A stretch of DNA of 64,000 nt from Gemmatimonadota bacterium (GTDB lineage Bacteria; Latescibacterota; UBA2968), in assembly GCA_009838845.1 (NCBI GenBank), contig VXRD01000022.1, positions 32,964 to 96,963 of the forward strand, written 5' to 3'. The position numbers and the translations under genes were made by a program. Under the pieces are notes generated by a model. That model ran no database searches. It had not been told where the DNA came from and saw only the letters and a program-made list of their open reading frames with translations. Below are positions 28,825-51,464 of this stretch, piece after piece (position 1 is the stretch's first letter; each line of letters opens with the position of its first letter).

Positions 28825-28927
28825 ACGAATCAACGAATCTGCGAATCAACGAATCTGCGAATCGAAGCTCGCACTAAATTTGGGTGGCGGGGTGGGATTC
28901 GTCTATTCGTCTATTCGTCTATTCGTC
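28825..28927 (-). repeat. Iteron element A (GACGAATA type)
   Basis: Read on the minus strand, this ~103-bp element has three GACGAATA iterons, a CCCACCCCGCCACCCAAA core and then 8-nt iterons of GATTCGTT/GATTCGCA type that are complementary to the first arm. It starts 1 nt after the DUF4159 stop codon and ends before MoxR. It is a relative of element B (51363-51464), in the same orientation with respect to the upstream gene. Confidence 0.85.
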
Positions 28928-28928
28928 C

Positions 28929-29783
28929 TCAATGCGTCATCGCATACACCACGATATTAATACCCATCGGATACGCCTTGGGCGCGGAAAAATTGCGAAA
29001 ATACTCGTAATTCTCGCCCTCGCGCTCCCAACCATCGCCCAAATCTGTATTGTGCATCACCACGACCATCAACCGTCCATCCCGATCAAAAATGCCCTTG
29101 CAATGCGCCTCAGAACCGTATTGGTCATAACGCCCAGCCCAGCCCTCATAAGTAATCCCCGTCGATTGCCAGTCCCAGAAACTCCCCAGACCCGGCACCT
29201 GCGGCACCTCCTTGATATCAAACACAATGTGAAACAACTCGTGATCCAGCGGAATATCCACCAGAGGAAATTCATCGGGTGGCAACACCTGAGAAATCTC
29301 GTACTCCCAATTTCGCCACGCATCATCTCCCCAGAAATCATCCACCAGCAAAAAACCACCGCGCAACAAATAATCGCGCAACCCCTCCTGCTCGGACACA
29401 CTCAGCGCCATCCGTCCCACCTCGAGCATATAAATAAACGGATACTTAAACACCTCGGGATCATCGAGACGCACGACCACATGCTTAAACTGCCCATCTT
29501 CTGTGCGATTCACATTGAGCGTTGTAATTTGAGACAACCGCAGTGAAAAATTCTCATCCGACTCGGGATAATCCACCGACCAACTGCCCCGCCGCCGCCG
29601 ATACCCCCAATCATCATCGCCCGTATAATTCGAATACTCGATACGACAAAACGTAAACGTATTACCCGGAAAAATATCGCGCTCCATCCGCTCAATAGGA
29701 CCTCGCCGTCTGCGACCGAACTGTGCATCGACATCCCACTCGGGCATCAACAGCACCAACAAACACGCCAACAAAATTCGCAT
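28929..29783 (-). CDS. DUF4159 domain protein, exported
   Basis: This 284-residue protein begins with signal peptide MRILLACLLVLLMPEWDVDA, then an Arg-rich stretch (FGRRRRGP). The DUF4159 domain follows: FTFCRIEYSNYTGDDDWG, YPFIYMLEVGRMALS, LRDYLLRGGFLLVDDFWG and LDHELFHIVFDIKEVPQVPG. DUF4159 resembles the GATase-like fold and is frequently encoded with MoxR/Bat genes. The frame extends to 29966 within the preceding gene, but the ATG at 29783 has GGAGG at 9 nt and starts the signal peptide. It overlaps the TPR gene stop by one base (TGATG). Confidence 0.85.
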   Translation of the reverse strand: MRILLACLLVLLMPEWDVDAQFGRRRRGPIERMERDIFPGNTFTFCRIEYSNYTGDDDWGYRRRRGSWSVDYPESDENFSLRLSQITTLNVNRTEDGQFKHVVVRLDDPEVFKYPFIYMLEVGRMALSVSEQEGLRDYLLRGGFLLVDDFWGDDAWRNWEYEISQVLPPDEFPLVDIPLDHELFHIVFDIKEVPQVPGLGSFWDWQSTGITYEGWAGRYDQYGSEAHCKGIFDRDGRLMVVVMHNTDLGDGWEREGENYEYFRNFSAPKAYPMGINIVVYAMTH

Positions 29784-32218
29784 CACGGCACCTCCACCAA
29801 TTCCAACAACAACTGTTGTGCATCCCAAAAATGCGGCATGGTTTCCAACAGCGCGAGCACCTCGGCTTTTGCAGCCTTGACCTCGCCCTTTTTTGCGAGC
29901 GCCTCCGCCAGATTGAGCCGATGCTCGGCGCGTCCTGGTACATCCAGATAAATAAGCCGACGCCAATCCGCGATAGCCGCATTCCAGTCTTCCAGCATCT
30001 CGTAAACCTCGGCACTTCGCGTCAGTATCTCAACCTGAAAAGGACGAACAGCCAATGCCCGATCCAGCACGGCACGCGCAGCCGTCCAGTCTTTATCCTC
30101 CACATAAAATCCACTCAATAACAGACAGGCTTCATGCGCCATCGCATCCCATCCAACGAGCTTTTTTAATGCTTTGCGATACCACTCCGGATCACCGCGC
30201 ACAGCACCGGCATCTGCCCATAGCCGCAAAGGCGCATCTTCCGCAGCATAGTCCGGATACAAAGCGTACGCCTCCAGGAAAAACCGCTCGGCATCCGCCC
30301 AGTTTTCTGTCTCAACTGCCTCTTTTCCGGCATCCACCGCCTTGCGAAACTCCGAATTTTTGGACAGCGCCTTGAGGGGCGCGCATCGATTCCCCAGATA
30401 TTCCATAAACCGCTCATCCACAATACGAGCAGAAACACCACTGGCCGAAATCAACGCCTCAACAGCCTCCATGCCATCGCCAATGCGGTCGAGTGCTGTC
30501 ACCAGTGCATCGTGGCCGTAGTGATTCACATAAAAAGCCACAAACTCGCCCGATACAAAATACCCATACATCAGATGCATCGGCGTTTCTGGATCGGTAA
30601 AAAACCGCCCGAGATCGCCTACAGCGGGAAACCCCTCGCCATCTACAATATGTTTAAATTCCGGCCCCAGTCGCTGCCCCCACGACACATCCTTTTGCGT
30701 CTCTTCATAGACCGAAATCCCCTCCGACAACCAGCGCGGCATGCGATTGTGGGTCTTTTGCAGCGTAATCACATGCACAAACTCGTGCCACAACACCTGT
30801 TGCCAGTTCATCGTACCGGGTGGTCGTGCCCGGGGAGAATCCATCGTAACCAACCGCCCAAAACAAATACCCAAATGCCCCGCATTGCCCGGCAGTCCAA
30901 CCGACCGCACCATAAACACATCGTGATCGTCAAACACCTGCACCACCACGGGCGTGTGCAATGCAATATTGTATTTTCTCTGATAGTATAAAGCCGCTTC
31001 ATTGAGCAACTTCAACAACTCATCGGACATCACCTCGGCTTCTTGCCTGGGCAATTGCAACTTAAAAATACCGCGCGATATCGTCACAAAACCATCGATC
31101 GCATCGGCAGCTTCGAGTAAGTTATACGCCCGCACGCTATATGGGTCGGCAGCAAAAACTTGCTCCAACTCGCTCCGAGCCTCGGCATCTTTGCCCAACC
31201 GCAACAAATCATACGCCAACAGCAAACGCGCCTCGACATCTTTTGCATCAATTTCCAATGCACGCGCTTGAAAAGCACGCCCTTCTTCAAACCGGTATTG
31301 CCGCGACGCAATGCGCCCGGGAATGCGAAAAGCCCCTGAAAAATACCCATTAAAAGCCAATACTCGTTCCTGCGTCTTTTGCATCGCCGCAGAATCGTCC
31401 AATAAAAAAAACGCCGCCGCCTTTAACCCCAGCGCTTTCAGGTGATTTGGATTAACAGAAAGGATAGAATCCAACACCTCAAGCGCATCATGTGGCGCAT
31501 TGCGATCCAGCAATTGCTCGGCTTGCAACCGCTGGACCTCTAAATGATTCGGATTGAGGGCGAGAAGTTGCGCCATCACTTCCGAAACCCGCTCGTCGCC
31601 CGCGCGGTAATAACACCACATCAACCCCGCCAGAGCCTCCTGGTTCTCGGGGTCCAACGCGAACGCTGCACCGTATTTTTCTGACGCCACGTCAAAAGCG
31701 CGTTTGTCCAGCGCCAGATTGCCCGCCGCAACCAGCACAGACGCGCTATTGGGAAAAACCTCAGCCATCAAATTGTAAAACCGCAACAGCGATTTTGGAT
31801 CTTCGCCCTTTAACTCGCGCAGACGCGCAATTGCGATTAAATCATCGACATCATGGCGATATTCCGACAACAAGCGCACCTGATCCTCGGCCTTCATCAA
31901 TGCCAGGCCATAATCGCCCATCCGACCGCGCAGGCGATACAATTCGGCCAATCGCACGGTCGCATCGAGCGCACTTCCAATCCCTTCCAGTTGCTCAATC
32001 GCTTCGTCAACGCGTCCCGTCAACGCCAGCAACTCGGCATAATCCCGCCGCGTTGACCACGGGTGATAAGACGCGCGATCGAGCACTTTCACCGCCTCGG
32101 CATAATCACCCCGCGCCCACAGCACGCGATAATCCGTCTCCTGAGCAGAAACGCTGTCCGAGCTAAAGAGTATTGCGAAGATTAAAGATGTGGTTTTGGC
32201 TATTCGCAACATAATCAT
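29783..32218 (-). CDS. Secreted TPR protein with gluzincin metallopeptidase motif
   Basis: This 811-residue protein has an N-terminal signal (MLRIAKTTSLIFAILFSSDSVSA) and about ten tetratricopeptide repeats over residues 30-390. A peptidase-MA-like domain with LWHEFVHVITLQ (HExxH) is followed by RWLSEGISVYEE, where Glu is the third zinc ligand. More TPRs run to the C-terminus. This layout fits the DUF1570/peptidase MA-like group, extracytoplasmic. It could process or dock partners of the downstream MoxR/VWA membrane proteins. ATG 32218 or 32212 could start it; both lack a strong ribosome site. Confidence 0.82.
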   Translation of the reverse strand: MIMLRIAKTTSLIFAILFSSDSVSAQETDYRVLWARGDYAEAVKVLDRASYHPWSTRRDYAELLALTGRVDEAIEQLEGIGSALDATVRLAELYRLRGRMGDYGLALMKAEDQVRLLSEYRHDVDDLIAIARLRELKGEDPKSLLRFYNLMAEVFPNSASVLVAAGNLALDKRAFDVASEKYGAAFALDPENQEALAGLMWCYYRAGDERVSEVMAQLLALNPNHLEVQRLQAEQLLDRNAPHDALEVLDSILSVNPNHLKALGLKAAAFFLLDDSAAMQKTQERVLAFNGYFSGAFRIPGRIASRQYRFEEGRAFQARALEIDAKDVEARLLLAYDLLRLGKDAEARSELEQVFAADPYSVRAYNLLEAADAIDGFVTISRGIFKLQLPRQEAEVMSDELLKLLNEAALYYQRKYNIALHTPVVVQVFDDHDVFMVRSVGLPGNAGHLGICFGRLVTMDSPRARPPGTMNWQQVLWHEFVHVITLQKTHNRMPRWLSEGISVYEETQKDVSWGQRLGPEFKHIVDGEGFPAVGDLGRFFTDPETPMHLMYGYFVSGEFVAFYVNHYGHDALVTALDRIGDGMEAVEALISASGVSARIVDERFMEYLGNRCAPLKALSKNSEFRKAVDAGKEAVETENWADAERFFLEAYALYPDYAAEDAPLRLWADAGAVRGDPEWYRKALKKLVGWDAMAHEACLLLSGFYVEDKDWTAARAVLDRALAVRPFQVEILTRSAEVYEMLEDWNAAIADWRRLIYLDVPGRAEHRLNLAEALAKKGEVKAAKAEVLALLETMPHFWDAQQLLLELVEVP

Positions 32219-32300
32219 AAATCCCGACCAACCTGCATACACTTGCCCGCGCTTTCAAAATTTCGACACCAATACCATCTGGTTTGTTCCCATTCACCTC

Positions 32301-33272
32301 TCACCTATTATACGGAAAATGCCCCCCGCGCACATTGCGCCATACCGCGTCACAAGCCTCTAACACATCCTCATCCAAACGCCCATCTGCCGCCTGAATA
32401 TTGTGCGTCAGGTGTTCCAACTTGCTCGCACCCAAAATCATCGAATCGACAATCGACTGAGACATCAACCATTGCAAAGACAATTCAATCATCGTCTTGC
32501 CAGCAGAATGTGCAATCTGCTTCAATTCATCGAGCGCATCAAAATTGCGATCATACCAGAACCGGCCGTAATAATCCCGGTTCAAATCGAAACGCGTGCC
32601 CGCTGCGGGTTCGGTATCCCGTGTGTGTTTGCCCGTCAGCATGCCCGCTGCAAGCGGATTATATACCGCCATCCCAATATTCATTTCACGGCTAAACGCA
32701 ACACACTCCTCATCGATACTCCGCGTAATCAAATTATAGGGTACCTGCAACACCACAGGCGGTGCCCAATTGTTTACATCGCATTTCCAAAGTGCTTTCA
32801 TCACCTGCCACGAAGCGAAATTCGACATCCCCACATATATGACCTTCCCCTGTTGTACCAAAGTGTCAAACGCCGCCATTGTCTCTTCAAGAGGCGTATT
32901 CCAATCGGGCTTGTGCAAATAGAGAATATCCAGACAATCGGTCTGCAACCGCTTCAAACACGCTTCCACTCCCCGAATCACGTGCCAGCGGTGCAAGCCC
33001 TGATCCTTAATCTCATCCTGTCCGACAAAATTGGCGATCTTGCTCGCCAAAATCACCCGATCGCGTTTGCCCTTGAGCGCCTTACCCACAATTTCTTCGG
33101 ACACGCCATTCACATAAGTATCTGCCGTATCGATAAAATTCACACCGGCATCCAGAGCCGTATCCACCATGCGAATAGACGTAGCCTCATCGGCCTGATC
33201 CCCAAATGTCATAGCGCCCAAACATATCCGCGACACGCGAATACCCGTCCCTCTCAAAACGCGATACTCCAT
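32301..33272 (-). CDS. Aldo/keto reductase
   Basis: This 323-residue protein is a TIM-barrel NADPH-dependent oxidoreductase. The catalytic tetrad is visible: Asp in FIDTADTY, Tyr in ADTYVNG, Lys in ILASKIAN and His in ILYLHKPD. The C-terminal IVDSMILGASKLEHLTHNI binds the cofactor phosphate. Members reduce aldehydes and keto sugars. The ATG at 33272 follows AGGAGG by 3-4 nt; an upstream in-frame start at 33299 is less likely. It lies 82 nt upstream of the TPR-peptidase gene and is divergent from the heme A synthase region. Confidence 0.93.
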   Translation of the reverse strand: MEYRVLRGTGIRVSRICLGAMTFGDQADEATSIRMVDTALDAGVNFIDTADTYVNGVSEEIVGKALKGKRDRVILASKIANFVGQDEIKDQGLHRWHVIRGVEACLKRLQTDCLDILYLHKPDWNTPLEETMAAFDTLVQQGKVIYVGMSNFASWQVMKALWKCDVNNWAPPVVLQVPYNLITRSIDEECVAFSREMNIGMAVYNPLAAGMLTGKHTRDTEPAAGTRFDLNRDYYGRFWYDRNFDALDELKQIAHSAGKTMIELSLQWLMSQSIVDSMILGASKLEHLTHNIQAADGRLDEDVLEACDAVWRNVRGGHFPYNR

Positions 33273-33362
33273 CTCTCCTCCTAACTGTTGCTTGTGCAAT
33301 CTTTTTTCTTATCTTTAACTATCGCTATAACATAACACTGTCTCGCGACTTCGCAATATACT

Positions 33363-33536
33363 ATGATCTGGCTCTTCATCTTTATTTTTCTCGCATTTTG
33401 GGTCTATATGGGCATTGAACTCTACCTGTATTTCCGAAAACCCAAAAATACCGACAACTGGGACGACCTGTCCGAATGGGCGTGGCGGCGCACAGTGCGC
33501 AAAGCCATTGACGAGATGTTAAAAGAGAAACGGTAG
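33363..33536 (+). CDS. Small single-pass membrane protein (57 aa)
   Basis: This short frame encodes MIWLFIFIFLAFWVYMGIEL, a single membrane helix, followed by a polar tail with YFRKPKNTDNWDDLSEWAW and a basic end (EMLKEKR). No family is recognised. No clear ribosome-binding site precedes it. It ends 12 nt before the heme A synthase gene and is likely co-transcribed, so a role in cytochrome oxidase assembly or heme delivery is conceivable but unproven. Reality as a gene is supported by position and by its coherent membrane-protein composition. Confidence 0.55.
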   Translation: MIWLFIFIFLAFWVYMGIELYLYFRKPKNTDNWDDLSEWAWRRTVRKAIDEMLKEKR

Positions 33537-33548
33537 TCAGCAGGTTTT

Positions 33549-35446: not shown

Positions 35447-35473
35447 TGCGGCGACTGCGACGCGCTCACCATC

Positions 35474-35502
35474 TTGACAACCCATAAGCGATTTGATATA
35501 TT
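35474..35502 (+). promoter_or_regulatory. Sigma-70-type promoter of tRNA-Leu (CAG)
   Basis: TTGACA (35474-35479), a 17-nt spacer and TATATT (35497-35502), about 21 nt before the tRNA 5' end. Confidence 0.85.
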
Positions 35503-35523
35503 TGCCTTCGCACTGGATCAGGT

Positions 35524-35610
35524 GCCGAAGTGATGGAACTGGTAGACGTGCGGCGTTCAGGGCGCCGTGGGCTTAGGCCCGTGTGGGTTCGAATCCCACC
35601 TTCGGCACCA
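35524..35610 (+). tRNA. tRNA-Leu (CAG)
   Basis: This 87-nt class II tRNA has an encoded CCA. Acceptor stem GCCGAAG/CTTCGGC, anticodon loop TTCAGGG with anticodon CAG, a long variable arm and T arm GTGGG-TTCGAAT-CCCAC are all clear. Confidence 0.95.
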
Positions 35611-35632
35611 TAAATTCTCACATAGAACACAG

Positions 35633-35665: not shown

Positions 35666-35685
35666 ATACACAACGGAGCGCGAGG

Positions 35686-37979: not shown

Positions 37980-38324
37980 ATGACTCAAAAAACCGACAAA
38001 AAAATCGCTACCCTGGACACGAAAATTGCCCTGCCCAGAGAAAATGGAGAACTCGTTTTTCAGGATACCTGGGAAGCGCGCGCTTTTGGCCTTGCCGTTG
38101 CACTCAACGAAAAAGACCTCTACGAATGGCGTGAGTTCAGTTCTCAATTGGCTTCGGAAATCGCCGATGCAGAACAAAACAACAACCCATCGAGCTACTA
38201 TGCCCGATGGGTCGCTTCCCTCGAAGAACTGCTTATTGATAGAGGCTTGATCAGCCGGGAACAACTGGACGCCAGAACAGCGGAATACGCCTCTGGCATT
38301 CACGACCATCATCACGACCACTAA
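37980..38324 (+). CDS. Nitrile hydratase activator/accessory protein
   Basis: This 114-residue protein resembles the N-terminal half of the beta subunit: LPRENGELVFQDTWEARAFGLAVAL and YYARWVASLEELLIDRGLIS are the standard motifs of the nitrile hydratase accessory (activator) family. These proteins deliver cobalt to the alpha subunit by subunit swapping. The C-terminus HDHHHDH is a probable metal-binding tail. It begins 7 nt after the alpha stop and closes the operon. Confidence 0.9.
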   Translation: MTQKTDKKIATLDTKIALPRENGELVFQDTWEARAFGLAVALNEKDLYEWREFSSQLASEIADAEQNNNPSSYYARWVASLEELLIDRGLISREQLDARTAEYASGIHDHHHDH

Positions 38325-38460: not shown

Positions 38461-38494
38461 TCCATCTGCGTTCATCTGCGTTCATCTGTGGATG
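38461..38494 (-). repeat. Iteron element C (GATGAACGCA type)
   Basis: On the minus strand, CATCCACAGATGAACGCA, then a second GATGAACGCA and GATGG, form 10-nt iterons. The element starts 6 nt after the stop of the sulfatase gene, between it and the terminator of the converging nitrile hydratase operon. Confidence 0.7.
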
Positions 38495-38500: not shown

Positions 38501-39937
38501 TCAACGCTCTCGCCCAGACACAAACAAATCGTAAGAATTTGACTGCCAGCCGCCATCATTTACAATTCCATCGTTGGTATCCCTCAACCATTTGACCATC
38601 CGATCCTTCATGCGTCTGAGCACGTGTTTGTACCCCAGCTTAGGCGCTAAATTGTGCAACTCCCCGGGATCACTCTCCAGGTCGTAGAGTTCATCTTCAC
38701 TACACGGATTGTAGATATACTTCCACTTTTGGGTCTGCACCATTCGAATCGTACACAGCGCAGGCTCGTACCCGTGATGCTCTGCAAAAATATCCTCTCG
38801 CCAATCCGACGGCGTCTCCCCGCGCAGCAAGGGCAATAAAGAACACCCATCGACCTTATCGGGAATATCCACGCCCGCCATCTCGAGAAACGTCGGCATC
38901 ATATCGACCAAACTCACAAAATCATCGCAAACACGATTGGGTTCAACAACACCCGGCCAACGGATCGCCAATGGAATCTGGTGCGTCTCATTGTACATAT
39001 TCATCATCTTATTAAACAAACGGTGACTGCCCAGCATATCGCCGTGATCCGAACTGTACACAATCATCGTATTATCCAGCTGACCCGCTTCTTCCAGAGC
39101 ATCCAAAACGCGCTGCACCTGATCATCGATAAACGTACAGTATCCCCAATAGGTCGCGATCACCTTCTGCCAATCTTGCCAGGTCAAATGACTGGCATTC
39201 CACCTGAGCATCTCCTTTTGCTGAACACTCGGTTTATCGACAAACTGCTCGTCGAAATTGATCCAGCGTTCCACAGTATTGGGATCGTACATCTCATCGT
39301 AAGGTTCTGGCACACAATAGGGAAAATGTGGACCAAAAAAACTGCTACAAATCATAAAGGGTTTATCAACCTCACAAAATCCTTCAATCAGATCAATCGT
39401 CCTATTGGCAGTCCAGTGCTCCTGCATATACTCGGCGGGCAACTGAGACCGACCGCAAAAAGGCGCGTCACCCCCCCATTCCATGCGTTGAACCTCCTGT
39501 GCATATCCCCAATCAAAACCCGCATCGCGCACACTCTGGTTCCAATCACGCGTCGTATGCCACGGATCAAACCCCCAAAATTCGCTATCCCCCTCCCTGG
39601 GCAAATGCCATTTGCCCACATAACCGACATTATAACCCGCGTCAGATAAAATCTGCGGATAGGCGGGCTTATCCAGAATATTCAAATCAAAAGCCCGATT
39701 AAAATTGCCCATATTCGACATCTGTCCGTGATTATGTGGAAACATGCCGGTAAGCAATGACCCGCGCGCAGGAGAGCAAAGGGCAATGGGCGTATAAGCC
39801 CGGCAAAAACGCATGCCCTCTCTGGCAATGCGATCAATCGCCGGCGTCTTGCACACCGCATTGCCATTAAATCCCAGCGCATCATAGCGCTGCATATCGG
39901 TAAGCAAAAAAAGGATATTGGGTCTCTCCGTGTTCAT
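38501..39937 (-). CDS. Sulfatase (formylglycine type)
   Basis: This 478-residue arylsulfatase-family protein has an intact signature, CSPARGSLLTG, with Cys54 as the formylglycine precursor. Other motifs are ILFLLTDMQRYDALGF (metal Asp), YVGKWHLPREG and VYSSDHGDMLGSH. The C-terminal DELYDLESDPGELHNLAP is the common sulfatase tail. No signal peptide is seen. The ATG at 39937 has AGGAGG 6 nt upstream; the frame extends to 39961. It lies 27 nt after the MFS transporter stop, which suggests import of a sulfated compound and desulfation inside the cell. Confidence 0.92.
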   Translation of the reverse strand: MNTERPNILFLLTDMQRYDALGFNGNAVCKTPAIDRIAREGMRFCRAYTPIALCSPARGSLLTGMFPHNHGQMSNMGNFNRAFDLNILDKPAYPQILSDAGYNVGYVGKWHLPREGDSEFWGFDPWHTTRDWNQSVRDAGFDWGYAQEVQRMEWGGDAPFCGRSQLPAEYMQEHWTANRTIDLIEGFCEVDKPFMICSSFFGPHFPYCVPEPYDEMYDPNTVERWINFDEQFVDKPSVQQKEMLRWNASHLTWQDWQKVIATYWGYCTFIDDQVQRVLDALEEAGQLDNTMIVYSSDHGDMLGSHRLFNKMMNMYNETHQIPLAIRWPGVVEPNRVCDDFVSLVDMMPTFLEMAGVDIPDKVDGCSLLPLLRGETPSDWREDIFAEHHGYEPALCTIRMVQTQKWKYIYNPCSEDELYDLESDPGELHNLAPKLGYKHVLRRMKDRMVKWLRDTNDGIVNDGGWQSNSYDLFVSGRER

Positions 39938-41206: not shown

Positions 41207-41277
41207 CTGGATCAGGATGTTCAGAGCTTGCACTGGAGTGGTTCTATCCAGTGATGAAAGGATGTTCAGGATGACCG
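41207..41277 (-). repeat. Iteron element D (CTGAACATCCT type)
   Basis: On the minus strand, CATCCTGAACATCCT is followed by a hairpin CACTGGA/TCCAGTG and then CTGAACATCCTGATCCAG. It starts 1 nt after the CarboxypepD_reg gene stop and reaches the MFS start. Confidence 0.7.
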
Positions 41278-41278
41278 G

Positions 41279-42496
41279 CTACTGATTTCTACCCGAACCG
41301 AGCTTTTGCCATGCCGCGGGTAGATTGCCTTGCAGGAGTTCGCTTTTCATGCGGATATGTGCGGTATCTCGGTCCGCTGTATGTGCAGCCCAAAAAGTGC
41401 TATCTCGCGTGGTTGCCTCCGGCAGAATCACAATTTCCGGCGCCTCAAAAATTGCGGGTGGCAAATCCGTATTGAGATCATAGCGATAGCAACGCGTTGT
41501 CGCTTGCGCGGTATAATCGCGTGTCTTAATCGTACAAATTTGGCGCGCGGGCAACCAGTACTCGTTGAGATATCGCGTATTTTGCTGATAAACCTGCCAG
41601 TGATCTATGCCGCGCAATTGCAAGAGCGCGGGAAAATTGAGACGCAGGTCATAGCCTACAAGTGAAAAGTCATCGCGGGCGATCCATAAATCGCCGAGCA
41701 AGCCCGGCTTGTGCCCGTGCCGCGGCGACACACCAATGCGCGAAACGTGAAGATCGCCCACTTGCACTGTGGAAATGCGTTCATAATGGTAGTGTTCAAG
41801 CGCGTCGGACGATAGGGGATGCGGCGCGATTTCAAAGGATTTATCATCTACAATACCCCGTGCAGGGCTTTGCGTGAGACCCGGGGAAACACTCAACCGC
41901 CACTTGCCCCAATTGCGTATGCCCGTAATATGCTGCGCGAGACTATCGGGGGGTTGGTAATAGCCTTTAATCGTATATTCAATACCCGCAACGACTTCTT
42001 CTGTTTTGCGGTTGATCACCTTCTGGCTACTATACGCATCAAATGCATAAGTATCCATATTTGCGTAACCAGTGTGGAGATATTCGAAGCGGGTATTCGC
42101 GATCAGGAGGCGGATCAGATCGGGTGCTGAGATGTCCTGCACTGTGGTTTCCTCGCGCAGGAGTATAGGGATGGGTAAAAGTGAAAGTTCCAGCGTGGAG
42201 ATCAAACCGCGCGAAAGCACTAGGGTCGTATCTGATGGGGCATACCCCTGGCGACGCGCCTGAACGTGTGCGATCCCCGGCACGAGTCCGTCTATCTCAA
42301 TGCGCCCGTGCAGATCGGTAATGTGAACGCGGGGGAACTCACCCGCTCGGCGGATAACAACAGTGGCATAAGGCAGGCTTGCACCGGTATCGGCATCGCG
42401 ACACTGCGCGTCGAGAACAGATGTTGAATCAGTCTGGGCAAGTGAGATTGAAGGCCAGAGGAAAACAGAAAAAAAAAGAGGCAAAAAGCGAATCAT
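41279..42496 (-). CDS. Exported CarboxypepD_reg-domain protein
   Basis: This 405-residue protein begins with signal peptide MIRFLPLFFSVFLWPSISLA. A carboxypeptidase-regulatory-like beta-sandwich follows (residues 25-105, GASLPYATVVIRRAGEFPRVHITDLHGRIEI). The remaining 300 residues resemble outer-membrane-associated DUF5686-like or TonB-receptor-adjacent proteins: KVINRKTEEVVAGIEYTIKG, FSLVGYDLRLNFPALL, LNEYWLPARQICTIKT. It probably sits in the periplasm or outer membrane. ATG at 42496 is in an ATGA overlap with the upstream PLP-enzyme gene. Exact role unknown. Confidence 0.7.
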   Translation of the reverse strand: MIRFLPLFFSVFLWPSISLAQTDSTSVLDAQCRDADTGASLPYATVVIRRAGEFPRVHITDLHGRIEIDGLVPGIAHVQARRQGYAPSDTTLVLSRGLISTLELSLLPIPILLREETTVQDISAPDLIRLLIANTRFEYLHTGYANMDTYAFDAYSSQKVINRKTEEVVAGIEYTIKGYYQPPDSLAQHITGIRNWGKWRLSVSPGLTQSPARGIVDDKSFEIAPHPLSSDALEHYHYERISTVQVGDLHVSRIGVSPRHGHKPGLLGDLWIARDDFSLVGYDLRLNFPALLQLRGIDHWQVYQQNTRYLNEYWLPARQICTIKTRDYTAQATTRCYRYDLNTDLPPAIFEAPEIVILPEATTRDSTFWAAHTADRDTAHIRMKSELLQGNLPAAWQKLGSGRNQ

Positions 42497-43584
42497 TGTT
42501 TTTTGCCGCGCGCGAGAATATCCCACACGACTTCGACGCGGTCATCGCGCGTGCCGTAGATCTGATCGTGCAAAAATACGGTCATGTCGGAATACCCGGA
42601 AATAAATTGAATTTTATCGCCAATTTTTAGATCGCTATTCGTCAGGCTGAGTAAGGCGTGTTCTGCCGCCAGACCAGTTACGACAACATCTGTTCGGTCT
42701 TTGACCTCGGGCAATGAAGGATGGCTACTCGTCGTCTTGCGCCCAGCATCGGCAACTGCGCGGTCGGGAGCCGCGCGACTGATAACCGTGGTCAGCACGG
42801 AAAGCGCGTGTTCCAAACCGCGAACATGGAGGCCATCGCGATAATAAGTATCCATAAAAATGCCCCCGCCGGCCTGTATCTCAGTAATACCGGGAAAATC
42901 GGGAGTAAATGCGAGCGTACCCGTACCGCCCGCACTGACAATACCGACGCATAACCCCGCATTCTCGATAAGATTGCGCGTCTTTGACAACTCTCCCGCA
43001 GCCTTCTTGCAGGCGGCTTCTTTGGCGGCATCATCCAGAGACATCGCGTGCCCTTCGTAACCCATAATCCCCGCAAAAACCACACCGGGCGCGGCATCAG
43101 CCTGCTGTGCCAGCGCAAGGGTTGGGGCTCCCGGCGGCACACCACAGCGTTTCATGCCAACATCTACTTCAACAAGCACGCGCACGTTGACCCCAACATC
43201 TGTGGCCGCGTCACTTATCGCGTGGATATGAACGGGATCGTCAACCGCCACCATAACATCTGCGCGGCGGCGCAGGTTGACCAGACGCGCGACTTTTTCC
43301 CGTCCAACAACTTGATTGGCGACGAGTATATCCGAAATACCGCCATCTGCCAGCACTTCGGCTTCACCGAGTTTGGCACAGGTAATGCCAATAGCACCTG
43401 CACACAGTTGTTTGTGGGCAATAGCGGGCGTTTTGTGGCCCTTGGCATGGGGCCGCCAGTGCAACCCGCTATCTCGACATCGAGCCGCCATCTTCTGGAT
43501 ATTATTTTCCATCTTATCCAGATCAATGAGCAGCGCGGGCGTATCGAGCACCTGTATGGATTGACCAATTGGAGAATAGGGCAT
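42493..43584 (-). CDS. D-threonine aldolase / D-serine dehydratase-like PLP enzyme
   Basis: This 363-residue fold-III PLP enzyme belongs to the DSD1/D-threonine aldolase group. The PLP Lys lies in RPHAKGHKTPAIAHKQ. EVDVGMKRCGV and IMGYEGHA are barrel motifs. The C-terminal SGYSDMTVFLHDQIYG...DRVEVVW carries the expected metal-binding residues. It would cleave or dehydrate D-hydroxy amino acids. The start at 43584 is 8 nt after AAGG. It lies between malate dehydrogenase and the CarboxypepD_reg gene, with iteron element E just upstream. Confidence 0.88.
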   Translation of the reverse strand: MPYSPIGQSIQVLDTPALLIDLDKMENNIQKMAARCRDSGLHWRPHAKGHKTPAIAHKQLCAGAIGITCAKLGEAEVLADGGISDILVANQVVGREKVARLVNLRRRADVMVAVDDPVHIHAISDAATDVGVNVRVLVEVDVGMKRCGVPPGAPTLALAQQADAAPGVVFAGIMGYEGHAMSLDDAAKEAACKKAAGELSKTRNLIENAGLCVGIVSAGGTGTLAFTPDFPGITEIQAGGGIFMDTYYRDGLHVRGLEHALSVLTTVISRAAPDRAVADAGRKTTSSHPSLPEVKDRTDVVVTGLAAEHALLSLTNSDLKIGDKIQFISGYSDMTVFLHDQIYGTRDDRVEVVWDILARGKKQ

Positions 43585-43592: not shown

Positions 43593-43690
43593 TTACAAGT
43601 TAGAAGTGGGAAGTAAGAAGTTAGAAGACCTCCCAACACCGCCCCAAAGCGGCTACCTTTTCACACTTCACATTTCACACTTCACACTTC
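43593..43690 (-). repeat. Iteron element E (GAAGTGTGAAG type)
   Basis: On the minus strand, GAAGTGTGAAGTGTGAAATG and further GAAGTGTGAA iterons are followed by a GC-rich core (GCCGCTTTGGGGCGG) and then by complementary CTTCTAACTTCTTACTTCCC iterons. The element begins directly after the malate dehydrogenase stop and ends 8 nt before the PLP-enzyme start. Confidence 0.8.
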
Positions 43691-44701: not shown

Positions 44702-44731
44702 CGATACTCCTCTTTCAGGTGAACGATTGAG

Positions 44732-44759: not shown

Positions 44760-44818
44760 GATGGTTGAATTGTTGATCTAAATACCCACTGTGGTTAGAA
44801 CGAAACGCGATTGATCAT

Positions 44819-46000: not shown

Positions 46001-46067
46001 GGGAATCTTCCTTTCTCAACGCAACCGGCGCGTTCCGGCAGCAGGTTAAATGACAATGCATACCGCC

Positions 46068-46096
46068 AATATATGCAGTGTGTAAAATCCTGTCAA
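46068..46096 (-). promoter_or_regulatory. Sigma-70-type promoter of the TPR gene
   Basis: Minus strand TTGACA (46091-46096), a 17-nt spacer and TATATT (46068-46073), about 68 nt upstream of the start codon. It lies just downstream of the tautomerase gene. Confidence 0.85.
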
Positions 46097-46136
46097 GTCT
46101 CTGCGCGAAGGCGCAAACTGCACGCCGCTATTACCC

Positions 46137-46322
46137 TTATTGTTCCGATAGAAGCGTGCCGCCTCGCGCCCAGTGATCGCGGGAAATATCTTCGATAACG
46201 ACCATCGTGCCATCGGCTTTGGCATCGCAAATATTGACCATCGCATCGGTAATAGCTCTGGCGAGTTCGCGTTTTTGCTCGTGCGTGCGGCCTTCGAGCA
46301 TTTTAACATTAATGAAAGGCAT
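46137..46322 (-). CDS. 4-Oxalocrotonate tautomerase family protein
   Basis: This 61-residue protein begins MPFINVKMLEGRT, giving the catalytic N-terminal Pro after Met removal. QKRELARAITDAMVNI and the conserved VVIEDISRDHWARGG complete the family pattern. Such enzymes tautomerise 2-hydroxymuconate or act on related keto-enols as hexamers. AAAAGGAGGT precedes the ATG. It follows the dockerin/propeller gene by 11 nt and is probably co-transcribed with it. Confidence 0.92.
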   Translation of the reverse strand: MPFINVKMLEGRTHEQKRELARAITDAMVNICDAKADGTMVVIEDISRDHWARGGTLLSEQ

Positions 46323-46333
46323 AGTACCTCCTT

Positions 46334-47665
46334 TTAAAAAATAATCAGTTCTGGACTCTGCAACCTGGGAACCGCGGGTTTGGACGCGCCAAAGGAAAAA
46401 GCAACCGGCAAGCTAAAGCCGCGGATAGTACCCAGGGTTCTATTATCTTCGAGATCGACAATATAGACCTGTAAATTGCCCGTTGAAGCCAAACTTTCAA
46501 GGCTTTCGACACCAGCGACATAGACCGTCTTACCGTCGGGTTTAAGGCCGATATTGCCCACGATTACACCGACAAAAATTTCGGCGGTTTGTCTCCATGT
46601 TTGTGTATCGATAACCACAATACCTCCCCAGAACGCGGGCACGGAATTGCCCAACGCATCAAAGCCCAAAAAAATTCGGTAGAGAGATACGACAAGGCGC
46701 GTGCCATCTGCGGAAAGCGCGATATCGCGAACTTCAATGTCCAGATCATTGGCCTGACCGAGTGTGAGGCTATCGGCAATCGCTTTGGTGCTGGTATTGA
46801 CTTTGAGCACGCGGCCTGCACGAGTGTTGTTGAGATAAAGGCTTTGTCCATCGGGCGAGACGGCCAATCGACTGACGGTTTGGCCCACAGAGATACTGTC
46901 GATCAGTGCTGGAATACCCGTATCAATAACAGACACGGCATTTGTAGCATTGCCGTGCCCAACATAGAGACGCGCCCCATCGGGCGAGATAGCAATGCCA
47001 CGGGGCGTGGGCGGAACATCGATGATGTCCAGGGGCTGACCTGCAAGTACATCAAAAACTTCGACTGTAGCCCCCTCTTCTTCGGTCACGTATGCAAACT
47101 GGTGATTGGGTGAAAGCGCAATGTGAAAACCGCCCCGACTCGTAAATCCTCCGCCAGGTGCGACTGGCATTTCGAGTGAGAGTTGAAAATCGGGGATCCC
47201 ATCTTCAGTAAATGCGTGGAAGGTATCTCTACCTGCCACATAAAGTCGCTTGTTGATATTAGAAAACGCGATACCCCGCGGAAAATCGGCGGAAAACGTT
47301 CGGCTGGAATCGAGCAAATTAGTCGAAGTATCGATAACCCGGATATTGGCACCTAGAACATCGCTAATATAAAGAAATCGAGGCTCGGGTCCTGCCGGTG
47401 GAGTCGTCGGACTTGAAGACCCGCCAAAAGCATTGACAAAAAGCAGAAAGTCCGAAAAGTCGATTGTGCCATTGCCGTCGAGGTCGAGTTTTTCATTGAA
47501 ATCATCCTGACCGGCAGACTTGCCAAAACCCTGAGCAAACGCCAGAAAATCAGTAAAATCAACGGTGCCATTGCCATCAAAATCAGCGGATTTTGTTTCC
47601 TGGGCATCGAGCAGTGGAGCTATCAAAATTAGTGTGAGAGACAATACAATCGCGGTATATTTCAT
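46334..47665 (-). CDS. Secreted dockerin-like/EF-hand and YVTN beta-propeller protein
   Basis: This 443-residue protein begins with signal peptide MKYTAIVLSLTLILIAPLLDA. Two dockerin-like calcium loops follow, DFDGNGTVDFTDFLAFAQGF and DLDGNGTIDFSDFLLFVNAF (about residues 27-80). A Thr/Pro linker leads to a seven-bladed YVTN-type propeller with SPDGARLYVGHG, SPDGQSLYLNN and KPDGKTVYVAGV. It is probably surface-attached or secreted. The frame extends to 47752, but ATG at 47665 has AAGGAA and starts the signal peptide. No cohesin partner is in the window. Confidence 0.85.
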   Translation of the reverse strand: MKYTAIVLSLTLILIAPLLDAQETKSADFDGNGTVDFTDFLAFAQGFGKSAGQDDFNEKLDLDGNGTIDFSDFLLFVNAFGGSSSPTTPPAGPEPRFLYISDVLGANIRVIDTSTNLLDSSRTFSADFPRGIAFSNINKRLYVAGRDTFHAFTEDGIPDFQLSLEMPVAPGGGFTSRGGFHIALSPNHQFAYVTEEEGATVEVFDVLAGQPLDIIDVPPTPRGIAISPDGARLYVGHGNATNAVSVIDTGIPALIDSISVGQTVSRLAVSPDGQSLYLNNTRAGRVLKVNTSTKAIADSLTLGQANDLDIEVRDIALSADGTRLVVSLYRIFLGFDALGNSVPAFWGGIVVIDTQTWRQTAEIFVGVIVGNIGLKPDGKTVYVAGVESLESLASTGNLQVYIVDLEDNRTLGTIRGFSLPVAFSFGASKPAVPRLQSPELIIF

Positions 47666-47690
47666 AATATTTCCTTTTTGAAGGGTACTT

Positions 47691-47719
47691 ATGATACATT
47701 TGACCGTTGAGGCTGTCAA
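47691..47719 (-). promoter_or_regulatory. Sigma-70-type promoter of the dockerin/propeller gene
   Basis: Minus strand TTGACA (47714-47719), a 17-nt spacer and TATCAT (47691-47696), 25 nt upstream of the start. Confidence 0.85.
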
Positions 47720-47790
47720 TCTGAATTGATTACATTTTGGGACGTTTCCCATTTGCTTATAGTTCCCGGTTCTAAATAAAAGGAGATATT

Positions 47791-48576
47791 GTGTTACCCG
47801 ATTATCCGACGATTTTCTGGATTCTGGCTGTCATCTCTGTAATTTTTGTCGGTATAGCCAAAGCCGGGTTTGGCGGAGGTGTTGGCATTTTGGCAACGCC
47901 ACTCATGGCACTTGTCATTCCAGTGGCAGACTCGGCAGCGATTTTGTTACCACTCTTAATGGTTTGCGATGTATTTGCCGTTGCACACTACCGCAAGCAT
48001 TTTCATCGGCGCAGTGTAAAATTGCTCTTGCCCGGTGCGGCAATCGGGATCGGTATAGGAGCATTATTCTTTGGATATTTCAGCGCGAATGAGCGCGTAT
48101 TGCAACTCGGTTTGGGGATTTTGAGTTTGTTTTTTGTGGTATTCCAGGCTTTGCGCGCAGTGATTACGGGCGCACTTACAAAGCGACACCCACACAGTGC
48201 AGAAGGCGTTTTCATGGGCGCAATAGCGGGCTTTACGTCAACCATCGCACATGCTGGCGGTCCCCCTACAACCATCTATTTGCTTCCCCAACAATTGCCC
48301 CGCAACCTCTTTGTGGGAACGACCGTAATTCTTTTTGCCGCGATCAATCAGATGAAATTAATTCCCTATTTGGGATTGGATATTTTGCGAGCCGAACATC
48401 TCGTCACAATCGCAATCCTATCCCCATTGGGCTACGCAGGCGTGAGGTTGGGCATTTTTTTTAATAAGCGTTTCACAGACCACTGGTTTAATATAGTCGT
48501 CTATTCAATTCTATTTATCGCAGGCGTACAGTTGATTTCGGGCAAAAACTTAATTCAATTGTTAGGCATTGTGTAA
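47791..48576 (+). CDS. TauE/SafE-family sulfite exporter
   Basis: This 261-residue protein has about eight membrane helices and the family motifs GIAKAGFGGGVGILATPLMAL and IAGFTSTIAHAGGPPTTIYLLPQ. TauE/SafE proteins export sulfite, sulfoacetate or related organosulfur anions. That would suit a genome using sulfated or sulfonated compounds. The start is GTG at 47791, with AAGGAG 7-8 nt upstream. It is divergent from the dockerin/propeller gene. Confidence 0.9.
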   Translation: MLPDYPTIFWILAVISVIFVGIAKAGFGGGVGILATPLMALVIPVADSAAILLPLLMVCDVFAVAHYRKHFHRRSVKLLLPGAAIGIGIGALFFGYFSANERVLQLGLGILSLFFVVFQALRAVITGALTKRHPHSAEGVFMGAIAGFTSTIAHAGGPPTTIYLLPQQLPRNLFVGTTVILFAAINQMKLIPYLGLDILRAEHLVTIAILSPLGYAGVRLGIFFNKRFTDHWFNIVVYSILFIAGVQLISGKNLIQLLGIV

Positions 48577-48655
48577 ACTGTAAAATTGTCCTATTTTTTA
48601 GAAAAAGGGCCGGGGACTGGTGTGATCCTTTCACGTCTCACTCTGGAGGTTGGCC

Positions 48656-49309
48656 ATGGCATCGCGCATCTGCTTTATACTGACCTGTATCATCGCTTTT
48701 TCCGGGTGTTATACGCAACTTCGGGCACCGCGCGTTCATCGTGAACAACGCGCTGAATCCCCTGTCAAGCCTTCCGAGAATTCTGTACAGCGATTTGAAT
48801 ATTACTACTACAATTATTGCAATCCATCTCCTCTGCCATTTTACGAATCATACCATCCATATCGCCCGTACCGTCCATATCGGCGATATCCGCGCTGGAA
48901 CCGGCACCGCCTCATCTGGAAATATTCGAGCTGGGCAAGCGTGTACGACCCGTGGTGGCGGGGGTGGTCGCCGAGGATTTTGGTGCCTCATATTGTATAT
49001 GCGCCAGCGCCAACAGTAAGACCTCAAATAGAACGCGAGCAAGTCAATCCGCGTCCCCGTATCAGATACACAGGCGTGCGTGGAGAACCCGCCTCGGCCA
49101 GCACAATTCGGTCGGGCAACACCACAACTGAAAGCACACCTACAGCACAGCGGGAGAACTCGCGCAGCACCAAAACGAAAAGCACACAGCAAACGGAGAA
49201 CTCGCGTAGTACCAAAACACAATCATCAGAAAAATCAAAAAAAGAAGAAAAGTCTGAAAAGCGCGAAGAGAAACGCTCAACGCAGCGCCGCAGAGGAGGG
49301 ATGAGATAA
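48656..49309 (+). CDS. Lipoprotein of low complexity (PYR-rich, Lys/Ser tail)
   Basis: This 217-residue protein has a lipoprotein signal, FILTCIIAFSGC, with lipidated Cys near residue 18. A Tyr/Pro/Arg-rich stretch follows (YHPYRPYRPYRRYPRW), then WWRGWSP, and a C-terminal Ser/Thr/Lys/Glu tail with two copies of ENSRSTKT. No family is recognised. GGAGG is 6 nt before the ATG at 48656. Its stop overlaps the start of the outer-membrane protein gene by one base (TAATG), so the two are likely made together and may form an outer-membrane pair. Confidence 0.75.
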   Translation: MASRICFILTCIIAFSGCYTQLRAPRVHREQRAESPVKPSENSVQRFEYYYYNYCNPSPLPFYESYHPYRPYRPYRRYPRWNRHRLIWKYSSWASVYDPWWRGWSPRILVPHIVYAPAPTVRPQIEREQVNPRPRIRYTGVRGEPASASTIRSGNTTTESTPTAQRENSRSTKTKSTQQTENSRSTKTQSSEKSKKEEKSEKREEKRSTQRRRGGMR

Positions 49310-50583
49310 TGACCAAACATCTCTGTATCCCGACATTTGTGATTTGCGTCTTCGCGGTATCTATCCCTGCACAAGAAGTCGCTCTCGATAGCTTTTCTGG
49401 CATTGGTGCCCGAGCCATGGGCATGGGCGGTGCTTATATTTCCGTATCCGATGATTTTTCTGGCCTGTTCTGGAACCCCGCGGGATTGGCGCGGATCGAG
49501 CGCGGAACCGTAAATTGGGGCGTTTCGCACGACCGATTTCGCAACATATCGCAATTTTTTGACCGTTCTTCAACCCTCGAATTGCGCAGTACGCGCATTG
49601 CATCCCTGGGTTTTGTCTATCCCGTTCCCGTGTATCGCGGGAGTCTGGTCTTTGCCGGAGGCTTTGGGCGCAATCAAAATTTTGATGGAGGATTACAGAT
49701 TGATGCGTATGATACCATCGCCAATTTTGATAAAGCGGGAATTTCAGAAGACAAAGGCGCTCTCGGCGCGTGGACATTTGGGGCTGCAATAGATCTGATG
49801 CCGCGTTTGTCGGCGGGAATCTCGCTGTTTCGTTGGGGGGGAACCAATCGCTTTTTACAGGAATTGACCCTTGAAGATGTGCAACGGGTACACGCCGACA
49901 CCATCCGCATCTTCCAGCGTTTTGAATCTGAGGAACGCTATTCTGCCTGGGGCATCCAGGGCGGCATTCGGTATTGGCATCCCACGGGATTTCAATTTGG
50001 CATTGTGGCAACAGCGGCCACGCCATTGCGCGTATCGGCTGAGCTGGCGGATGAATTTGAAGACGAGTTTGAAGACCGCACAGATACCTATCCACGCGAA
50101 TCTTTTTCGGACGCATATGAAATTCGTCAACCCCTGACTTTTGGGATGGGAATTGGATGGTCGTCGGGAGGATTGACGGTGAGCGGCGACGTACATTACG
50201 GCGATTTGCAAGAAATAACTTACGAGATTTTGCCACTCAATATTGCACCCAATGTCGATGATTTCCGGCGGCAATATCGCAGTGCGGCGCGGCTGCATTT
50301 GGGATGTGAATATGTCATTTCGCATTGGGGCATCGCGTTCAGAGGTGGTTACTACCGCGACCCGGTTCGCTATGTGGGGGGCGGCAGTGTCCCAGAAATA
50401 CAAATTGAGACAGACCGCGATGCATGGACACTCGGTTTTGGCACCGAATTGGAAAAGGCTGTAACCCTGGATTTTGCCGCAGTGATTGGTGGCTACAAAG
50501 CCATTGAAGGTAATCGCGCAGATCGCGTACGTGCAGTGCGGGTACTCGCCTCCGCGCGTTTTTATTTTTTTACAGGACTTTAG
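49309..50583 (+). CDS. Outer-membrane beta-barrel protein (OMPP1/FadL- or PorV-like)
   Basis: This 424-residue protein has a signal peptide (CIPTFVICVFAVSIPA) and the diagnostic SGIGARAMGMGGAYISVSDDFSGLFWNPAGLARI block of FadL/TodX/PorV-type barrels. The rest alternates hydrophobic and polar residues, as expected for a barrel. It ends in an aromatic strand (VRVLASARFYFFTGL). It may import hydrophobic compounds or act as an outer-membrane assembly protein. It is coupled with the upstream lipoprotein gene. Confidence 0.85.
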   Translation: MTKHLCIPTFVICVFAVSIPAQEVALDSFSGIGARAMGMGGAYISVSDDFSGLFWNPAGLARIERGTVNWGVSHDRFRNISQFFDRSSTLELRSTRIASLGFVYPVPVYRGSLVFAGGFGRNQNFDGGLQIDAYDTIANFDKAGISEDKGALGAWTFGAAIDLMPRLSAGISLFRWGGTNRFLQELTLEDVQRVHADTIRIFQRFESEERYSAWGIQGGIRYWHPTGFQFGIVATAATPLRVSAELADEFEDEFEDRTDTYPRESFSDAYEIRQPLTFGMGIGWSSGGLTVSGDVHYGDLQEITYEILPLNIAPNVDDFRRQYRSAARLHLGCEYVISHWGIAFRGGYYRDPVRYVGGGSVPEIQIETDRDAWTLGFGTELEKAVTLDFAAVIGGYKAIEGNRADRVRAVRVLASARFYFFTGL

Positions 50584-50602
50584 AAAGCACAAAGGAGTTA
50601 GC

Positions 50603-51367
50603 ATGGATCAGTATATTTCTGAAACACAGTGGGCAACATTTGAAGCGCAAGGGTATCTTCATTTGGGCAAAGTAATGGACGATGGGGAACTGGAGGCATT
50701 ACAGCAGCGAATTGATGAGATCATGCTCGGCACGGCGTCCATCGACTACGATCATGTAATGATGCAACTGGATTCTGACCCCGAGAACAATGGAAAACCC
50801 GGCCCGCAGAGCAAAGGACATAAATACGCGACACTCGGATATCGCAAAATTCAAAATTTGGAATTGGATCCCCTCTTTCTCTCATTTTTACAAAAACCAC
50901 AGTTTCGAGAAATCTGCGAACACATCTATGGCAAAAATACGCCCGTAGATTGTTTTAGGGCGATGTTTATGAACAAACCCGCACACGACGGCACCCCGCT
51001 GGTATGGCATCAGGACCGCTGGACCGATCTAACCCTCGATCCCCAAATCACGATATGGACGGCTCTGGATCCCACATCAGTTGAAAACGGCTGTGTGAAA
51101 ATTATTCCGAAATCGCATCACAGGCTGATAAATCCCGAGCAAGGCTCCGGATTTTTGACCGAAGAACACATCGAGACCATTGTATCCCAATACGAGCCAA
51201 TAGATTTAATATTAGAAGCCGGCGACTCTGTTCTGCTCCACAACTGGATGCTGCACAGTTCGGGCGTAAACACCACAGATATTGCGCGCCGCGCATTCAG
51301 CGTGTGTTATATGCACGGTGACACGCGCTCATTGCGCGGCAGCACCTTCACCCGTGTCTTTGAATAG
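50603..51367 (+). CDS. Phytanoyl-CoA dioxygenase (PhyH) family oxygenase
   Basis: This 254-residue Fe(II)/2-oxoglutarate oxygenase has the HxD in VWHQDRWTD, the distal His in LLHNWMLHSSGVN and Arg in ARRAFSVCYMHG. WATFEAQGYLHLGKVMDD is the usual N-terminus. ATG at 50603 follows AAGGAG; the frame extends upstream to 50486 inside the previous gene. The stop codon TAG at 51365-51367 is formed by the first iteron of element B. Confidence 0.9.
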   Translation: MDQYISETQWATFEAQGYLHLGKVMDDGELEALQQRIDEIMLGTASIDYDHVMMQLDSDPENNGKPGPQSKGHKYATLGYRKIQNLELDPLFLSFLQKPQFREICEHIYGKNTPVDCFRAMFMNKPAHDGTPLVWHQDRWTDLTLDPQITIWTALDPTSVENGCVKIIPKSHHRLINPEQGSGFLTEEHIETIVSQYEPIDLILEAGDSVLLHNWMLHSSGVNTTDIARRAFSVCYMHGDTRSLRGSTFTRVFE

Positions 51368-51464
51368 ACGAATAGACGAATAGACGAATAGACGAACCCC
51401 ACCCTGCCACCCAAAGTTGCACCAAACTCCGTCGTTAATTCGCCGATTCGTTGATTCGTTGATT
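51363..51464 (+). repeat. Iteron element B (GACGAATA type)
   Basis: Four GAATAGAC/GACGAATA iterons (51363-51396) precede a CCCCACCCTGCCACCCAAA core. They are followed by complementary iterons CGATTCGTTGATTCGTTGAT. The element overlaps the PhyH stop codon and ends 3 nt before the PabB start. It is the counterpart of element A, with the same orientation relative to the upstream gene. Confidence 0.85.

Follow-up and report, generated by a model that had tools for sequence, protein, structure and literature searches.

Short tandem heptamers in intergenic DNA are familiar from cyanobacteria, where they are called short tandemly repeated repetitive (STRR) heptanucleotide repeats. For short intergenic iterons in distant microbes, no explanation of placement or spread has so far been accepted. 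Forward copies of TAACTGA repeats stop all three reading frames and hence lie at the ends of open reading frames (ORFs), which is probably a major factor in their distribution (MacGregor 2015, PMC4679880). These repeats are scattered over distant phyla and change by insertions and deletions in 7-nt steps, and no transfer mechanism is evident in the portion of that study considered here. The Geobacter "multicopy nucleotide sequences" are intergenic families with direct repeats of 6-42 nt, and their insertion is described as non-random (PMC2996986, PMC2700814). Repetitive extragenic palindromic (REP) sequences near stop codons have been linked to translation control (PMC12306157). Here, five iteron elements named A to E are described from a window of 64,000 nt (G000:C22:32964-96963, on contig VXRD01000022.1) in a 5.75-Mb draft genome, G000, of the phylum Latescibacterota. 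An original prediction, made from the letters of this window, held that five distinct iteron classes each begin within about 7 nt of the stop codon of the upstream gene, beyond what random insertion would give. It proposed either insertion close to stop codons or a common role in mRNA 3'-end processing, intercistronic decay, or ribosome rescue.

Family A (which includes element B), family E, and others are dispersed families within one uncultured Latescibacterota genus. Repeats of 7, 8 or 10 nt make up the one or two arrays of each element, and often the arrays form two imperfectly complementary arms around a short core. They are variably present between congeneric species and exchange arms and cores. 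They replace the native spacer from the stop codon towards the next boundary, which is a ribosome-binding site, a promoter, or an opposing stop, and an array that overwrites a gene end supplies the new stop there. Our preferred reading is that the elements are modular non-coding "gene-end cassettes" that replace spacers and are kept at gene ends since they bring their own stops; we would put its probability at roughly 0.55. Such cassettes may spread through recombination at gene-end spacers, or by being copied into them, aided by the repeats themselves. They would survive mainly where an element starts at or just after a stop codon, because translation would end at once there and the coding sequence and the next start would stay unharmed. 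Selection on the units would then preserve their stop codons.

Alternative spacers behind the same stop codon

Orthologous loci were compared in a genus set of 11 genomes, G000 and 10 congeners, with genes called by a simple custom dicodon script. In the fetched regions, which covered the elements of the original prediction and two loci containing family A, arrays were present in at least one genome at 17 of 35 gaps. L423, a convergent site of family E, was added, and 18 junctions were read. At 16 of these 18 junctions with differing alleles the new sequence starts at the stop codon (A, B, C, D, E, L020a, L020b, L027a, L027b, w29783, w39937, w35446, w32218, L020_4766, L020_1196, and L423). The differing sequence begins between ~33 nt before the stop (B) and ~4 nt after it. 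The native stop position is kept in 11 of the 16. In the other five (B, E, L020a, w29783, and L020_1196, whose native state is uncertain) the element now contains or borders the stop. One remaining junction, L027_5850, is a doubtful pattern match and was counted as undecided; the other, L020_4018, is contrary and is taken up below.

The window elements themselves are all variable. Element A is absent in all eight congeners read. Element B is present in G001 and absent in four congeners, whose gene is 10 codons longer. Between the orthologous B copies of G000 (51362-51396) and G001 (L092), the upstream arm differs by two octamers, as expected from repeat slippage. The site of element E is empty in five congeners, in which the gene is one codon longer, and in two more it holds other elements with C-type upstream arms. 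The site of element D is empty in G002, G004, G006, and G009 and contains a shorter D in G003; other iterons occupy it in G001, G005, G007, and G010, and the gene is cut into in G001 and G010. At the site of element C, new sequence runs from the minus-strand stop, with other repeats in G002 and G006 and none in G009.

Likewise, L020a is found in G000 and, with a different core, in G004; a remnant is left in G008 and eight genomes are empty. It replaces four nt, among them the last part of the stop codon. The places of L020b, L027a, and L027b are empty or hold another sequence or family in the congeners read. At w29783, an element in G003 sits where, in G000, G001, G002, G005, and G006, the stop of one gene and the start of the next share 1 nt. 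This G003 element (orthologue of window 29783) split the two genes and supplied a stop, a spacer, and a putative ribosome-binding site. At w35446, different elements in G004 and G007 extend from the stop up to a putative tRNA-gene promoter (as judged by eye). The w35446 spacer is the one between the preceding stop and the tRNA gene at window 35524-35607. New sequence also starts from the stop at w39937, w32218, L020_4766, and L020_1196, with the first repeat unit ~20 nt further on at w39937. At L423, congeners carry different elements between the same two convergent stops.

Inspection by eye of junctions A, B, E, L020a, and w35446 showed no target-site duplication; ~4 to 42 nt are replaced there instead. 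Nor was a constant flank seen by eye at the element joints, which range from ~-33 nt (B) to ~+4 nt. Where G000 has an array in a gap, relatives also have one there in 24 of 89 cases, against 10 of 154 for other gaps (p 3e-5, not corrected for descent).

Placement of families A and E

Family E was represented by 47 copies parsed from 50 genus loci. One copy inside a called gene was excluded, and the 46 placed copies comprised 18 sense, 10 antisense, 14 convergent, and 4 divergent contexts. On stop-facing sides, 52 of 56 lie at or below +7 nt (median -6.5 nt), and the median on start-facing sides is 65 nt (n=36). In codirectional gaps with at least 50 nt to spare (50-335 nt), E copies hug the stop in 12 of 13 cases and the start in one. 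The preference for stops within gaps is strong by permutation (P < 1/4000, n=26), with an n that overstates independence because at least two pairs of E copies share both distances and look orthologous. Furthermore, 12 of the 14 convergent copies occupy the whole interval between the two stops, leaving -37 to +4 nt; for comparison, the G000 convergent gaps (n=42) measure 54 nt at the median and 7 nt at the lower quartile. Negative distances are partly automatic, because an ORF that enters a stop-bearing array ends within it, and the allele comparison is therefore the better evidence. Family E has a true stop preference.

Family A behaves differently. Its pattern matches numbered 52, from which five were dropped (one false, four inverted-core copies counted twice). 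The 47 copies fall into 25 sense codirectional, 11 antisense, 5 convergent, and 0 divergent contexts, with 5 at contig ends and 1 in a called gene, the last excluded from the placement counts. Draft contigs G000:C23:1, C91:1, and C161:46 terminate inside or beside A-family copies, and the copy numbers of this family are accordingly lower limits. Stop-facing sides at or below +7 nt amount to 32 of 50 with overlaps counted, and 24 of 50 lie within 7 nt either way; start-facing sides have a median of 19 nt and a minimum of at least 5 (n=37). What should be expected by chance? The answer depends on the null, since 8% would lie within 7 nt if placement were uniform per base of codirectional gaps, and 76% if each gap of 0-60 nt were drawn once. 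The residual gap beside A elements (median 27) equals that of ordinary codirectional gaps (p 0.95) and differs from length-weighted gaps (p 2e-15). No preference for stop over start within gaps was found for family A in G000 (permutation P 0.99, n=24; 0.30-0.78 with other edges, n=22), and in G001 the preference is weak (P 0.01-0.06, n=14). The ordinary residual gap and the missing in-gap preference indicate that family A mostly fills gene-to-gene spacers. The idea that stop proximity is gap filling only was drawn from family A and was overturned by the placement of family E.

One obvious alternative, and the first idea of the original prediction, is that an enzyme or a replication process directs the elements to the stop codon or to the junction of gene and spacer. 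The figures for family E, including those from the roomy gaps, are of the kind that targeting would give. The same is true of the use of one stop by different families in different species (w35446, w32218, L423), of the finding that gaps with an array in G000 hold one in relatives more often than other gaps do, and of family A drawing gaps regardless of their length. However, the joints vary in position and share neither a constant flank nor a target duplication by eye, and family A in G000 lacks a stop preference within gaps. Gene content, searched for Y1 transposases and RVT_1, does not point to an enzyme either. G000 has a single Y1 transposase (Y1_Tnp), and five of the 10 congeners (G003, G005, G007, G008, and G010), which all match family A, have none. 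RVT_1, the one reverse transcriptase family searched, is absent from the draft genomes G000-G005 and G010. Mobilisation by a retroelement or a Y1 transposase thus receives no support from gene content, and targeted insertion in general appears doubtful to us.

Repeat units, arms, and cores

In gene sense, family A/B reads (CGAATAGA)n, C-rich core, (ATTCGNNN)n, and family E reads (GAAGTGT)n, core, (ACTTCTN)n; the arms pair imperfectly in both. Among the 41 of 47 A copies counted, all but 1 of the 110 units of the upstream arm have AGA as spacer, and the 140 downstream spacers are TTG (64), CTG (36), TAG (18), CAG (16), and others (6). The arms or cores of some A copies (L036, L037, L040, L354, and others) also enclose small hairpin modules, CTGGATTGCGGC...GCCGCAATGACGG and GAACTGG...CCAGTTGTAC. 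Arrays were also sampled from 460 kb of G000 and 400 kb of G007, in stretches picked regardless of elements. Intergenic arrays there have periods mainly of 7, 8, 10, and 14 nt, plus 12 nt in G000, and arrays inside genes have a period of 9 or 12 nt in 23 of 41 cases.

Stop codons are present in the repeat units of 7, 8, and 10 nt. Because the unit lengths are not multiples of three and the units bear a stop (in one direction in A, in both in E), an array shuts two or three frames, and it can overwrite the end of a gene. Read inward from the 5' end, two or three frames are closed within 30 nt in 37 of 41 copies of family A and 44 of 47 of family E. From the 3' end, none is closed in 36 of 41 A copies, and two or three are closed in 42 of 47 E copies. 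This difference predicts that gene stops should lie inside the element on the 3' side more often in E than in A, and such an excess was found (15/24 vs 2/16, p 0.003; on the 5' side, 14/32 in E and 12/34 in A). Stop-adjacent arrays close three frames in 14 of 26 cases in sense and 4 of 26 in antisense (discordant 11 to 1, p 0.006). The 125 spacers of the E 3' arm, read inward, are TAA 36, TGA 34, TTA (which gives TAG) 30, TCA 0, and others 25; these units are not independent of one another. In the E 5' arm, units with a stop number 150 of 169, compared with 140.2 after column shuffling (P 0.0005). A simpler cause than stop-proximal insertion is available, as the arrays hold stops in several frames and make their own stop.

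Cores and arms are recombined with one another. The best alignment of an A core with an E core has 25 of 27 columns identical; at least two of six E cores in this comparison were wrongly delimited, which makes its mean less reliable. One exact C-rich core of 17 nt, CCRCCCAACCACCCAAA, occurs 50 times in 10 of the 11 genus genomes, and its backward control does not occur at all. It is accompanied by an A-type left arm in 43 cases, by E-type left and right arms in four, by TCAGCNN/GCTGANN arms in two (L384 and L385, both assigned by eye and left unclassed by the script), and by another pair in one. This single core is found with three different matched arm pairs, which indicates that arms are exchanged as pairs. 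In four A copies (L038:902-1044, L043:2024-2105, L129:1266-1354, and L131:17922-18016 on the minus strand) the core is inverted between unchanged arms. Of 15 adjacent arm pairs in the sample stretches and the window, 10 are matched, 4 are hybrid, and 1 repeats the same arm. Outside the genus, CCRCCCAACCACCCAAA has one match in 36 genomes of the class (G014), armless and equalled by one match of the backward control. It is also present in seven viral contigs, armless by eye in all of them, and the A arm has no match in the viral contigs. The core matches in G014 and the viral contigs were taken as chance.

Do the paired arms have a function in RNA? Predicted folding was compared with shuffled sequence for 41 of 47 A copies (copies lacking a recognised 3' arm were given a length of 95). 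The mean z is -2.9, with z < -2 in 32 of 41, compared with -0.84 and 12 of 44 in array-free gaps; element B gives -5.9 and element E -2.3. Of the 38 A cores, 28 have a possible two-tier G-quadruplex motif (vs 30% of shuffled ones), as do 11 of 24 E cores (vs 24%). The folding figures are consistent with a model in which folded arms might act in the mRNA past the stop, through an exonuclease block, translation insulation, termination, or ribosome stalling, and would be placed by selection. A REP no more than 15 nt from a stop reportedly reduces translation (PMC12306157, citing Liang 2015, in the portion considered here). However, element D has no predicted RNA fold (z +0.6), element C consists of one arm, and the four hybrid pairs have non-complementary arms. 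Presence at one gene also varies between close species, and both orientations are found, so that a role as functional 3' elements is rather unlikely. The view that these are plain neutral elements resembling miniature inverted-repeat transposable elements (MITEs) in a gene-dense genome, whose stop proximity is left over from sitting in short gaps, agrees with the residual gap of family A and its per-gap null but is contradicted by the placement of family E and by convergent E copies filled from stop to stop, and we consider it improbable.

How far do the elements reach? Family A is found in 15 of 41 genomes: the 11 genus genomes, one from another genus of the family, and three from another family of the order. 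The C decamer, searched as a 19-mer, occurs in at least 120 stretches. Its hosts among the 80 listed include Cyanobacteria, Proteobacteria, Planctomycetota, Verrucomicrobiota, Acidobacteria, NC10, Gemmatimonadetes, Latescibacterota, Methanoperedens archaea, and others. By crude ORF calls, 31 of 120 of these loci lie inside an ORF of at least 100 aa and were excluded from the distances. A stop is found within 15 nt of the TGA-reading end of the decamer in 19 of 48 cases and within 15 nt of the other end in 2 of 34 (Fisher p 0.0006); for starts the counts are 7 of 32 and 6 of 45. The TGA-reading end does not face stops significantly more often than starts (48 to 32, p 0.09), and a C-rich core is not enriched beside the cross-phylum decamer (5/120 on one side, 6/120 on the other). 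A tentative model, to which we give a low probability, can be put forward that the elements are a stop-seeking mobile module. In such a model, a cell process would recognise the border between translated gene and spacer and swap the spacer for a mosaic cassette with matched arm pairs. The units would be kept as stops, and part of the arm "alphabet" (the C decamer) would be common to bacteria and archaea.

Several results weigh against the preferred reading of cassettes kept at gene ends by their own stops. The repeats at L020_4018 in G010 lie ~70 nt behind the stop, beyond a terminator-like hairpin. The hugging of stops by family E in roomy gaps exceeds what tolerance alone predicts. Within family A, the two sides do not differ significantly in gene stops inside the element (12/34 vs 2/16, p 0.18). 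In the E 3' arm, column shuffling yields no signal (112 vs 111.3, P 0.45), although this test is blind to a base missing from a column. Intergenic arrays overall are no richer in stops than arrays of shuffled units (27/52 vs 62%). The 3' spacers of family A show no loss of the stop-free variant (CAG, 16/140), and selection for stops on the A 3' arm left no sign in the spacer counts. All p values reported here are too small, because repeat units and orthologous copies are not independent. Lastly, no donor, intermediate, or enzyme was found for the elements, the enzyme families searched being Y1 and RVT_1 alone.

The window elements and described repeat families

The genes around A, D, and E are on the minus strand. 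In gene sense, the upstream arm of element A (28897-28927, minus strand) is made of (GAATAGAC)n octamers with TAG in all three frames and lies 1 nt after the stop TGA 28929-28931. The C-rich core follows at 28864-28896. The downstream arm (28825-28863) consists of GATTCGTT/GATTCGCA octamers, is an imperfect complement of the upstream arm, and ends 17 nt from the start codon of the gene at 27779-28807(-). Element B has the same design on the plus strand. Its upstream (GAATAGAC)n arm (51362-51396) contains the stop TAG 51365-51367 of the gene at 50603-51367, its C-rich core is at 51397-51431, and its downstream arm (51432-51464) ends 3 nt 5' of the start ATG 51468 of the gene at 51468-53201. Element C is one decamer array at 38461-38490 (tandem array at 38463-38488). 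Its minus strand reads CAGATGAACG, with TGA in the unit and two frames closed, and it lies 10-12 nt from the minus-strand stop 38501-38503 and 136 nt past the plus-strand stop at 38324. Element D (41207-41275, minus strand) has CATCCTGAACATCC pieces flanking a hairpin, by eye, and lies 3 nt after the stop TAG 41279-41281(-). It adjoins an ATG at 41206-41204(-) that is common to the congeners; the start called by the script is 41233. Element E, also on the minus strand, has an upstream arm of GAAGTGT heptamers (43660-43690) with TGA in all three frames, 0 nt from the stop TAA 43691-43693. Its core lies at 43628-43659 (E-family cores, read as the reverse complement, resemble the A core), and its downstream arm of ACTTCTN heptamers (43593-43627) lies 8 nt from the start of the gene at 42493-43584(-).

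The original prediction was partly right in what it observed, and its interpretation is partly supported. Five repeat elements do exist, with tandem arrays confirmed for A, C, E, and B and with D seen by eye. The repeats differ, but A and B are one dispersed family on opposite strands rather than two of five classes. A beginning within 7 nt of the upstream stop is true of B, which also forms that stop as claimed, and is missed by C. For A, D, and E the ends quoted face starts (28825 and 43593, in A and E, face the start codons 28807 and 43584), and it is the opposite ends that lie 1, 3, and 0 nt from stops. The association with stops extends beyond the window, across families genome-wide and in congener alleles. 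The outcome named beforehand as refuting it, copies without stop preference genome-wide, did not occur for family E; placement beyond random holds for this family and not for the in-gap positions of family A in G000. Orientation relative to the stop is mixed and not uniform, as the contexts of family A illustrate. Chance tandem repeats were rejected as an explanation, the families being dispersed. A sixth "element" at 35517-35614 was rejected as well, being the tRNA at 35524-35607, which is the only match to Rfam 15 at gathering score in 28000-52500. Two 70-nt repeats, 70% alike, at window 47410-47578 lie within the gene at 46334-47665(-); they look like dockerin-type repeats.

Comparison of alleles shows where iteron elements land, which sequence they replace, and that they are able to supply their own stops, and this makes the puzzle of intergenic short repeats testable. 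If the preferred reading is true, units losing stops should disappear from gene ends. For annotation, it follows that an element can set the gene ends beside such arrays.

How do the elements relate to described families? Six repeat strings had no text match in the literature searched. In the portions considered here of the TAACTGA, Geobacter, and REP literature, neither paired exchangeable arms on one core nor replacement from stop to boundary shown by alleles was found. The elements resemble the Correia element (155 bp), a bacterial MITE, in being ~100 bp long, dispersed, foldable, intergenic, and provided with stops in all frames (PMC2229807, in part). Unlike MITEs, they have no fixed terminal inverted repeats; their arms are arrays of 7-8-nt units in variable number that are imperfect complements, and their ends vary. 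They also differ from Correia elements and MITEs, as far as the same portion of that source goes, in lacking a target duplication by eye and in having interchangeable arms and cores. Like REP sequences, bacterial interspersed mosaic elements (BIMEs), and REPINs, they are mosaic, intergenic, partly close behind stops, and RNA-folding (PMC12306157). REP/BIME units, however, are palindromes of 20-40 bp associated with REP-associated tyrosine transposases (RAYTs) in the portion considered, and here there are 7-10-nt iterons and no consistent Y1 transposase. For the Geobacter multicopy sequences, the parts of PMC2996986 and PMC2700814 considered do not describe stop adjacency or modularity.

The TAACTGA repeats share with the present elements an intergenic location and short direct repeats, in their case of a 7-nt unit (PMC4679880). 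TAACTGA arrays use one heptamer and, in the main genome, stand mostly just 5' of starts. The units here are CGAATAGA, GAAGTGT, CAGATGAACG, and others, and family E stands after stops. The present elements have several unit lengths, two arms, a core, and a comparison of alleles; paired arms, a core, and swapping were not found for TAACTGA in the portion of PMC4679880 considered. At the same time, the A and E arms and the C array are TAACTGA-like in the basic respect that a short tandem unit, of a length that is not a multiple of three, carries a stop in one orientation.

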